Origin: Peptoniphilus harei
GTDB taxonomy: Bacteria; Bacillota; Clostridia; Tissierellales; Peptoniphilaceae
Length of the DNA: 64,000 bases
Direction of reading: 5' to 3'
Assembly (NCBI RefSeq): GCF_900454685.1
Contig: NZ_UATM01000032.1
Span: 496,001-560,000 of the forward strand
A program made the translations under genes and the position numbers. This document shows positions 2,922 through 55,949 of this stretch, piece after piece. A model generated the notes under the pieces. The model searched no databases. It saw only the letters and a program-made list of their open reading frames with translations, and was not told the origin of the DNA. Within the stretch, counting starts at the first letter, position 1. Each line of letters begins with the position of its first letter.

Positions 2922-3178
2922 AAAAAAAAACCCGTCTCTTTATATACAAAGAGACGGGATTCATAAACTCGCGGTACCACTCTAATTCATCTTAATGATG
3001 CACTTATCCAATAATGAACTTCTCTGTAACGGGAGATCCCGAAAACACTTACTTATTTAAACTTCATTTCAGCATTTTAGTTCAGTGGCCATTTTCAGTA
3101 AATTCAATTTTTTGCCTCTCAGCTAATGGCAATTCTCTGTAAAAACATTCTTCACTTACTTTTCCACTTCAAAACATT
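2922..3178 (-). promoter_or_regulatory. T-box riboswitch leader
   Basis: On the minus strand the leader has ACAGAGAA followed by a stem I-like hairpin, the invariant T-box bulge GTGGTACCGCG (complement of 2970-2980), and then an 11-bp terminator hairpin (2931-2941 with 2948-2958) with a U-tract of eight or more. The T-box family antiterminates when an uncharged tRNA pairs with a specifier codon. The likely specifier lies in GAAAATGGCCACTGAAC: alignment to the usual GAA-specifier-purine pattern gives AAT (Asn, 3091-3093 complement) or, shifted by one, ATG (Met, 3090-3092 complement). I cannot choose between them by eye. Confidence 0.9.
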
Positions 3179-3185
3179 TAAATAA

Positions 3186-54296: not shown

Positions 54297-54471
54297 AACA
54301 AACCTCCTTTACCAGATAATCACAATAAACTATATAAATTAAATTATATCAGACGTGTCCTCTCTGTTAAAGACTCATTAATATTCTAAAATACTGAAGA
54401 GCATTTTTGGGAAATAAAAAATAGTCCTGAAGCTCTTTATATGTTAAAATATGAATCATGGAGGTGTTTAC

Positions 54472-54543
54472 ATGGATACCAGTCGACCCTGGAAAATATG
54501 TACATGCCTAAGCGATAAAGAAAATCTTGTGAGTAATAGCTAG
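54472..54543 (+). CDS. Putative 23-residue leader peptide upstream of mgtE
   Basis: A frame opens with ATG at 54472, 5 bases after GGAGGTG, and ends with TAG at 54541-54543. It encodes MDTSRPWKICTC followed by LSDKENLVSNS. It has no resemblance to a known protein. Codons for Arg (CGA), Pro (CCC), Trp and two Cys come before the codons that overlap the left arm of the hairpin at 54506-54577. This is the layout of a regulatory leader ORF such as mgtL or amino acid operon leaders. Translation is inferred from the strong ribosome-binding site only. Confidence 0.5.
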   Translation: MDTSRPWKICTCLSDKENLVSNS

Positions 54544-54590
54544 ATAATTTAGTTTTCATAAATCTTTATCGCTAGGCAGCGAATTTTTAT
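54506..54590 (+). promoter_or_regulatory. Candidate attenuator in the mgtE leader
   Basis: The left arm (54506-54520) pairs with 54564-54577 over 14 bp with one bulged A. The right arm can instead form a short hairpin TCGCT-AGGC-AGCGA (54569-54582) followed by ATTTTT, a weak terminator. The two folds exclude each other. The left arm lies within codons 12-17 of the leader ORF, so a translating ribosome would choose between them. It does not match the M-box Mg riboswitch as I know it. Confidence 0.5.
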
Positions 54591-54626
54591 GCAAAATTTA
54601 TTTGTTTGCAAAAAATAGGAGGATTT

Positions 54627-55949
54627 ATGAACAACTTAGATAGAGAAAAATTAAAGAACTTGCAAGAAAAGATCAACAGGATGGACCCTGTTGATATAGC
54701 AGAGAACTTAGAAGAACTATCCAAAGAAGATGTGGCAATTTGGATAAAACTCCTAAAAAAGGACCTTTTGGCAGACGCCTTTTCTCTCTTGCCAAGAGAT
54801 AAGAAGATTGAAATGATAGGTTCCCTTTCTGAAGACAGGATTATGAGTCTTATGAAGGAACTTGAAGAAGACGAGGTAGTAGATACCTTGCAAGAGCTTC
54901 CTGCCAATATGGTGAGAAAGCTCATGTACCAATACATCGAAGAGGATAGAAGACCAATTATAAACGAACTTCTAGGCTTTCCTAAGGAGTCCGTTGGTTC
55001 CATTATGTCCGTTGGTTTTATCTTTGTTAAATCAACAGCTACGCCAACACAGGCTCTAGAGAAAATTATCCACTCAGACCTAGATGCAGACAGGCTAGAA
55101 CAAGTTTGGGTTACAAACGAATCCTTACTTCTGATAGGTTATGTAAACCTAGCCGACCTTCTTCGTAATAGGGACAAAAAAATCGAAGAATTTATGCACC
55201 AAATCAATGCCAGCGTCTATGCAACAGATGACCAAGAAGTTGTTGCTAAGTTAGCCTTCAAGTACGACTTATCAGAAATTCCTGTAACAGATTCTGAAGG
55301 TAGACTTGTGGGTATCGTCCCAGCAGAATGGGCCATCGACGTTATGCACGAAGAGTATGAAGAAGACTTGGGTAACATCCACGGTATTAGCGAGTCATCA
55401 CCAGAGCACTATTGGGACAAGTCAGTCCTAAGACTTGCCAAAGACAGGACAATGTGGCTTATAATTTGTCTTGTTACAGCAACTTTTACAAGTTTTATAA
55501 TAAAAAGATATGAGACCCTCTTGGCATCATCAGTTGCTCTTGCAGCCTATATCCCAATGCTAATGGACTCAGGTGGAAACGCAGGTACACAATCATCAAC
55601 AACAGTAATCCGTGGAATCTACACAGGAGAAATTGAATTCAAAGAATTTGTACAAGTTATGTTTAAGGAACTCCGCATTGGATTAATAGTTGGAGCTGTC
55701 CTTGTGGCAGTAAATATAGTTAGGATGTCTATCCTCGACAGTGTTAGCATTGGAGTAACCCTAACAGTTTCAGTCACACTTCTTACAACAATAGTCCTAT
55801 CAAAAATGATTGGTGGTATCCTTCCTCTAATTGCAGAAAAAATAAAGGTGGACCCAACAATAATGGCGGGACCACTTATCACAACAATAGTAGATACTTT
55901 GGTATTATTTGTATATTTCGAAGTGGCAACACTTTTAATTGGGGTTTAA
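54627..55949 (+). CDS. mgtE: Magnesium transporter MgtE
   Basis: The 440-residue channel has an N-terminal superhelical domain (residues about 5-125, with DPVDIAENLEELSKED and DDEVVDTLQELP-type repeats), a CBS pair (about 130-250, including SVGSIMSVGFIFVKS and KYDLSEIPVTDSEGRLVGIVP), a plug helix and five membrane helices with the signature LMDSGGNAGTQSSTTVIRG. Intracellular Mg2+ closes such channels. The ATG at 54627 follows AGGAGG by 5 bases; an upstream TTG frame is rejected. A long structured leader precedes it. Confidence 0.95.
   Translation: MNNLDREKLKNLQEKINRMDPVDIAENLEELSKEDVAIWIKLLKKDLLADAFSLLPRDKKIEMIGSLSEDRIMSLMKELEEDEVVDTLQELPANMVRKLMYQYIEEDRRPIINELLGFPKESVGSIMSVGFIFVKSTATPTQALEKIIHSDLDADRLEQVWVTNESLLLIGYVNLADLLRNRDKKIEEFMHQINASVYATDDQEVVAKLAFKYDLSEIPVTDSEGRLVGIVPAEWAIDVMHEEYEEDLGNIHGISESSPEHYWDKSVLRLAKDRTMWLIICLVTATFTSFIIKRYETLLASSVALAAYIPMLMDSGGNAGTQSSTTVIRGIYTGEIEFKEFVQVMFKELRIGLIVGAVLVAVNIVRMSILDSVSIGVTLTVSVTLLTTIVLSKMIGGILPLIAEKIKVDPTIMAGPLITTIVDTLVLFVYFEVATLLIGV

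Follow-up and report, generated by a model that had tools for sequence, protein, structure and literature searches.

The MgtL leader peptide precedes the P-type ATPase gene mgtA in E. coli and Salmonella. The accessible part of one report (PMC11282234) describes that the EPDP motif of MgtL causes ribosome drop-off at low Mg2+. According to the same part, translation of the leader favours termination, failure of translation favours expression, and the termination acts through Rho (PMC11282234). E. coli MgtL starts MEPDPTPLP..., with acidic residues at positions 2 and 4 and Pro at position 5, in the same register as the M-D-x-[D/G/S]-P leaders reported below. MgtQ is a translation-aborting frame before mgtB in Salmonella, and the accessible part of its description states that Asp2 and Glu5 are needed (PMC8092293). 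The M-box (RF00380) of ykoK/mgtE senses Mg2+ by RNA folding. M-boxes are treated in PMC4072509, and the accessible part of that source names no leader peptide for them. Two further elements were compared from the accessible parts of their reports. The mycobacterial uORF2/Rv1805A resembles the leader described here, by description alone, in following an M-box as a small conserved frame, with conservation of its N-terminal region and Pro at position 7, but it is described as mycobacteria-specific, of unclear role, and located before pe20 (PMC12810186). The Thioalkalivibrio mgtE motif RNA is likewise a candidate cis-element before mgtE, but it is a structured RNA that extends into the start region of the gene behind it, it belongs to one genus, and a leader peptide is unmentioned in the accessible text (PMC11109978). 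Searches of an open-access library, judged mostly by titles and abstract openings, turned up no description of a leader peptide for mgtE in Bacillota. The preliminary description of this locus had stated that no such device was known on mgtE in anaerobic cocci, which understated the case: such leaders are widespread in Bacillota.

The window (the whole 64,000-nt stretch of Peptoniphilus harei DNA analysed) carries mgtE on the plus strand at 54627..55949. The gene encodes a Mg2+ transporter of 440 aa, and its Pfam matches to MgtE (PF01769), MgtE_N (PF03448) and CBS (PF00571) all exceed the cut-off. A leader peptide frame, MDTSRPWKICTCLSDKENLVSNS, is located upstream on the same strand (54472..54543). 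It starts with ATG at 54472, has 23 sense codons, stops with TAG at 54541-54543, and ends 83 nt before mgtE. The Shine-Dalgarno sequence GGAGGTG (54460..54466, plus strand) precedes the frame and is invariant in 11/11 aligned Peptoniphilus species; the frame and its strong ribosome-binding site lie exactly where they had first been placed. An extended -10 promoter element, TGTTAAAAT, was read by eye at 54442..54450 (plus strand) in the leaders of 11 Peptoniphilus species, with small changes and no clear -35. This element was not among the hits of the consensus promoter scan.

The pair list shows that codons 12-17 contain the left arm (54506..54520, plus strand) of a 14-bp antiterminator helix, as previously proposed. 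The right arm lies at 54564..54577 (plus strand; pair list, diversity and duplex test), and the helix has 14 pairs and one bulged A. The right arm overlaps a putative intrinsic terminator (54569..54588, plus strand), which was recognized by folding and by the terminator scan. The terminator consists of a small hairpin, TCGCT-AGGC-AGCGA, with a 5-bp stem at 54569-54582, followed directly by ATTTTT; this alternative hairpin had also been predicted correctly. The long helix and the terminator hairpin are mutually exclusive because both use 54569-54577. Two terminator-like sites were found in 54300-54700, one of them, the hairpin, on the mRNA strand, and shuffles expect 0.1. The fold of 54440-54680 reached -53.6 kcal/mol (z = -3.5; 1/200 shuffles as good), and the terminator stem in the window was weak (-4.5 to -5.3 kcal/mol). 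The Shine-Dalgarno sequence of mgtE, AGGAGG (54617..54622, plus strand), is outside both helices in the fold, and its sequestration in this species was rejected on this ground.

No Rfam family reached the gathering threshold in the leader region, and M-box RF00380 was not found there. With E up to 10, the scan of 54300-54700 gave one microRNA family and one snoRNA family, far under their cut-offs, and no M-box. We therefore rejected the presence of an M-box, or of any other Rfam family, in the leader of the window, and the possibility of a known riboswitch without coding constraint, raised earlier, found no match. The only T-box leader listed for the window (RF00230, 131.5 bits) is located at 2947-3181 on the minus strand. 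A degenerate form of the window's motif occurred in its own genome only at this locus and at its artefact copy. Contig C7 (6.3 kb, same assembly) contains the mgtE locus twice, in inverted orientation (L002, L003); each of these copies has one mismatch relative to the true copy, but 15-26 gap positions. This contig looks like a chimeric uncorrected read and not a duplication.

We propose, with a probability of roughly two in three, that the leader is a ribosome-read, MgtL-like Mg2+ sensor that attenuates mgtE and is coupled to an intrinsic terminator. The frame, the helices, their exclusivity, their conservation, the spread of such leaders and the association with mgtE are given by sequence and comparison. 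Translation of the frame, termination at the hairpin, the Mg2+ signal and MgtL-style drop-off are what we infer from them. Mg2+ is taken as the signal because a Mg2+ transporter gene follows the leader and the M-box is a frequent partner of such leaders. Transcription would start just upstream of 54460, and ribosomes would immediately occupy the leader frame. With sufficient Mg2+, the ribosome would clear the N-terminal motif (Asp2...Pro6) and move over codons 12-23. The left arm would then be kept unpaired, and the hairpin 54569-54582 with its T-run would stop transcription ahead of mgtE. At low Mg2+, the ribosome would lose stability or halt at the N-terminal motif, leaving 54506-54520 bare. 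The bare left arm would form the 14-bp helix; since this helix takes in the 5′ half of the terminator, transcription would continue into mgtE. Translation of the leader thus probably decides between completion and premature end of the mgtE mRNA. The sensing element would be the first 6-7 residues, and the RNA after it an exchangeable output device.

The precedents of MgtL (drop-off) and MgtQ provide the physical basis for this proposal. The locus resembles MgtL in its short, Shine-Dalgarno-preceded frame before a Mg2+ transporter gene, with an acidic residue at position 2 and Pro at position 5 there and 6 here. It also resembles MgtL in its alternative RNA structures, with translation favouring termination, which is read here from structure and with G007 and G011 as exceptions. 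The two differ in the transporter (P-type ATPase vs MgtE) and in termination, which is Rho-dependent for MgtL, whereas an intrinsic terminator shape is present here. MgtL also has the alternating EPDP, whereas the leader in the window has Asp2 and Pro6 alone, i.e., one acid and not two. In view of the type of termination, the leader may be said to work like MgtL, not to be MgtL. Peptides of this length would not reveal common descent. What is new relative to MgtL is the transporter, the terminator type and the lineage, and what is known is the MgtL-like logic. The likeness to MgtQ, judged from the accessible part of PMC8092293, lies in Asp2 within a tiny frame, alternative stem-loops and a Mg2+ transporter as output; MgtQ differs in being intergenic and in freeing a ribosome-binding site, whereas the output here would be transcription. 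The M-box has the same gene, the same place and the same OFF-with-Mg2+ logic, but senses Mg2+ by RNA folding and is absent from the window.

The strength of drop-off at this leader is uncertain. MDTSRPW is a mild motif, with one early acid and one Pro, less than in MgtL, so the ribosome may arrest instead of dropping off, or a helper factor may take part. The ribosome footprint extends about 15 nt downstream of the P site. A ribosome with its P site on codon 6 or 7 would cover the mRNA to about 54502-54506, where the left arm begins. The same geometry would suit a programmed arrest, in which the nascent peptide, responding to Mg2+ or another ligand, halts the ribosome without drop-off and the halted ribosome permits the antiterminator: a P site at codon 6-7 would just free 54506 onward, and the motif at the start of the peptide is both conserved and short. 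Arrest peptides usually fill the tunnel first and then act through their C-terminal end. The conserved part of this leader is residues 1-7, and we regard arrest as unlikely.

Orthologous loci were found in P. genitalis, P. phoceensis, P. grossensis, P. gorbachii, P. vaginalis and P. timonensis. The DNA search detected the leader in 11/14 genomes of the genus, and G006 carries a diverged version. Two genomes of the same genus (G001, G008) have neither this mgtE nor the leader, and only a distant mgtE of ~38% identity. None of the eight second mgtE copies tested in the genus (L005 of G000; L333-L339 in relatives) had a leader under the strict rule given below. The leaders of 11 Peptoniphilus species, the window included, were aligned (alignment A1), and all 11 have a Shine-Dalgarno-preceded frame starting MDTS(R/G)PW. 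The Rfam scan found no M-box in the ten other Peptoniphilus loci of this alignment (L009-L018). The pairwise diversity was 0.009 in codons 1-7 (54472..54492, plus strand), the presumed sensing part, 0.23 in codons 8-11 and 0.085 in the left arm. Downstream, it was 0.41 in the loop, 0.096 in the right arm plus terminator, and 0.42 in the spacer. The start of the frame, both helices and their exclusive geometry are thus kept in 11 species, which supports the core of the attenuator first suggested, namely that a passing ribosome leads to the terminator and an early halt to the long helix. Conservation among relatives, on which that suggestion had been made to depend, was found for both the frame start and the helices.

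Stalling at the Cys codons, one of the sites that had been suggested, was not supported. Four species (G005, G007, G009, G011) have one base deleted after codon 7, and their peptide then runs MDTSRPWKNVLVYAIKE..., vs MDTSRPWKICTCLSDKE... in the window and similar sequences in the other non-deleted species. The arms and the terminator are intact in the deletion species, and the frame stays open beyond the left arm. Since the later codons, including Cys, are read differently in 4/11 species, residues beyond 7 are not the signal; a ribosome has to get through, and the codons that it meets first are the ones that count. Cys is also lost in the other genera read. Arg5 is dispensable (Gly in G003, other residues elsewhere), and Trp is lost in the other genera read. 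Sensing by Cys, Arg or Trp codons was rejected in view of the alignment of the 11 species. In sequence terms, the conserved part is the N-terminus, namely Asp2 plus Pro at position 5-6; codon-level conservation holds for codons 1-7 and fails for later codons.

The third positions of codons 2-7 showed zero variation in the 11 species, vs 0.39 for mgtE third positions, and 0/378 five-codon windows of mgtE were as low as the leader. This invariance exceeds what constraint on the peptide needs, and therefore an extra RNA-level constraint on codons 2-7, unexplained by our model, is likely. The lack of third-position change in codons 2-6, below all 378 mgtE windows, and a leader fold that beats 199/200 shuffles would both be expected of a new RNA-only riboswitch, in which a conserved aptamer incidentally contains an open frame. 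Such an aptamer is hard to reconcile with other genera, where synonymous sites vary while Asp2 and Pro stay, or with the kept Shine-Dalgarno sequence and start codon, for which GTG/TTG replace ATG in 27/78 leaders. No Rfam match was obtained either, and we consider an RNA-only switch extremely improbable.

Local folding showed that both RNA structures form in 11/11 species, with the hairpin plus T-run at the same place. Pairing between the frame segment and the right-arm region beat at least 293/300 shuffles in 11/11 species. In the diverged G006, the duplex was significant (0/300 shuffles as good) and the terminator stem has 6 bp, while in G020 and G016 the duplex was non-significant (67/300 and 38/300 shuffles as good). 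Double changes were seen in the long helix, where C54507-G54576 becomes U-A in 8/11 species, and in the terminator, where U54569-A54582 becomes C-G in 7/11 (8 counting G012, assessed from its own fold, as MAFFT misplaces its terminator). Mismatches were also present: A54515-U54569 is A.C in 10/11 species, A54511-U54573 is mismatched in 9/11, and the terminator pair U54569-A54582 is C.A in G003 and G004. The covariation test that had been called for thus gave a thin result, with one clear double change per helix and several pairs mismatched in most species.

The terminator stem energies of the 11 species ranged from -2.6 to -6.8 kcal/mol. After removal of the left arm, the terminator hairpin was in the best fold of 9/11 species; the exceptions were G007 and G011, in which a competing fold with a paired T-run was better. 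A conserved small frame beside a chance hairpin, with translational control or no control at all, might account for a stem of just 4-5 bp in most species, for the failure of the automatic scan in G003 and G004, and for the best folds of G007 and G011. It would not account for a hairpin plus T-run kept at the same site in 11/11 species while the flanks drift, and the mgtE Shine-Dalgarno sequence is unpaired by either helix. We give this explanation very little weight.

Similar leaders were searched for beyond the genus under a strict rule: a Shine-Dalgarno-like motif, an ATG/GTG/TTG start, Asp2, a Pro anywhere in residues 3-8, a length of 8 codons or more, and a start at most 450 nt from the mgtE match. 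Strict leaders were present at 86/235 mgtE loci, vs a shuffled mean of 3.2 (maximum 7, 50 rounds) and 3/235 on the reverse strand. By sample, they were present at 24/38 loci of relatives, 30/88 of the class, 31/89 of the phylum, and 1/20 in a set of additional relatives and second copies. For the class and the phylum, each sample combines the top-scoring loci of its search with regions picked by rank; L158-L161, which count among the 88 'class' loci, were taken from another search, and the phylum search, in which 186/299 genomes passed the cut-off, contributed 89 loci. We excluded the contig C7 artefacts (L002-L004, L006-L008), further records of loci already counted (L038-L048, L052, L056-L062, L087, L090, L191-L197), short DNA hits elsewhere (L049-L051, L053-L055), and L070 and L071 (partial, 29% identity). 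The upstream sequence was short at L210 (<150 nt) and L036 (165 nt), and at the controls L298 (42 nt) and L281 (66 nt). The strict test was failed by 149/235 mgtE loci, including the mgtE of G001 and G008. Several of the failing loci have frames with Asp2 and without an early Pro, e.g., MDVGDDS (Facklamia) and MDAGSSS. The mgtE leader peptides of Facklamia, MDVGDDS and MDTGEDV (L067, L068), are more acidic.

The strict leaders spread over about 40 families, a rough hand count of family labels in which a few hits are due to chance. Outside the core of the genus the leaders start MDASGP, MDSGDP, MDSSVP and MDSGGP; the nucleotides change, and Asp2 and Pro are kept. In other genera and families the starts are MDSGPLP, MDSGPIP, MDSDPY, MDADPH, MDYDPLP, MDSSPLP, MDPGPLP, MDSDPLP and MDAGPSN, and further MDAYPGR, MDADPG, MDPDPG and MDTDPG. 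The general pattern of these leaders is M-D-x-[D/G/S]-P. The 78 distinct leaders used GAT (50) and GAC (28) for Asp2, CCT/CCC/CCG/CCA (43/22/11/2) for the first Pro, and ATG (51), GTG (20) and TTG (7) as start codons. Pro at residue 5 was found in 60/127 frames with Asp2, unselected for Pro, vs 27/498 other frames. An acidic residue 4 was found in 35/127 vs 55/498, and many of the Asp2 frames read MDxDP; frames with Glu2 were left out of both comparisons, and related sequences were included, so the counts are not independent.

Some features of these leaders recall trp-style attenuation, in which a shortage of charged tRNA (Pro, Trp, Arg or Cys) would stall the ribosome and make mgtE follow the amino-acid supply. 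Position 5-6 is often Pro, leaders of the MDSGPLP type contain it twice, and the arms have the geometry of a classic attenuator, with the leader frame overlapping one arm of an exclusive antiterminator/terminator pair. The leaders have no run of one codon, however; among the leaders read, Trp7 is confined to those of the 11 MDTS(R/G)PW species, and the frameshift removes Cys in 4/11 species. The commonest second residue is Asp, with a Shine-Dalgarno-preceded Asp2 frame at 116/235 loci and the next residue at 52, and the gene downstream is a Mg2+ transporter, with an M-box also at 20 of the scanned leader-bearing loci. An amino-acid signal is, in our judgement, quite improbable.

The association of strict leaders with mgtE was specific within the class: they were found at 0/23 loci of non-MgtA P-type ATPases and at 0/30 corA-family loci (9 above the corA cut-off). 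MgtA loci had a strict leader in 1/7 cases (L261). At L261, an MgtA-type P-type ATPase, the leader MDGSPDG is located about 220-260 nt upstream.

Rfam scans covered 53 leader-bearing loci (51 strict, L228 with Glu2, and L067 from Facklamia). An M-box was located upstream of the leader at 20 of these 53, so at least 20 such loci exist, the choice of loci being non-random and giving no rate (L022, L027, L073, L082, L083, L085, L088, L089, L092, L098, L159, L162, L166, L169, L175, L224, L226, L228, L242 and L243). An M-box followed by an acidic leader peptide possibly represents two Mg2+ sensors in series. Four loci (L076, L079, L084, L093) have an M-box without a strict leader. A cobalamin riboswitch match was observed in the locus of an mgtE with an MDPLPQ leader (L178).

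Intrinsic-terminator shapes followed 18/73 leaders vs 5/73 shuffled sequences in the automatic scan, which misses G003 and G004 and used an earlier set than the 78 distinct leaders. Of the 18 terminator-bearing leaders, 11 belong to Peptoniphilaceae or to the MDxxPGR group (L110-L113). The remaining leaders are without a terminator shape at this threshold, so their output device probably differs from that of Peptoniphilus. In MDSGPLP-type leaders (L025, L031, L034, L036), the leader's own Shine-Dalgarno region GGTGATGATT is seemingly complementary to the hairpin loop just before mgtE. Judged by eye, this complement seems to be a different output device.

These leaders raise the question of whether the ribosome is a Mg2+ sensor in Bacillota, with a large undescribed family of M-D-x-[D/G/S]-P leaders before mgtE, varied output devices, and frequently an M-box upstream; we consider the chances of this broader reading about even. 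If it is true, the output would be an intrinsic terminator in Peptoniphilus and other RNA switches elsewhere, and one mRNA would carry both an RNA-based and a ribosome-based Mg2+ sensor. Why some mRNAs have an M-box plus a leader peptide is a question raised by these loci. Mg2+ sensing through early ribosome drop-off is so far enterobacterial in the accessible parts of the literature examined. Should the same mechanism operate across Bacillota, where the transporter is unrelated, acidic/proline motifs early in a peptide would be a general route for turning the ribosome into an ion sensor, and dozens of natural variants would be at hand for finding which N-terminal residues matter.
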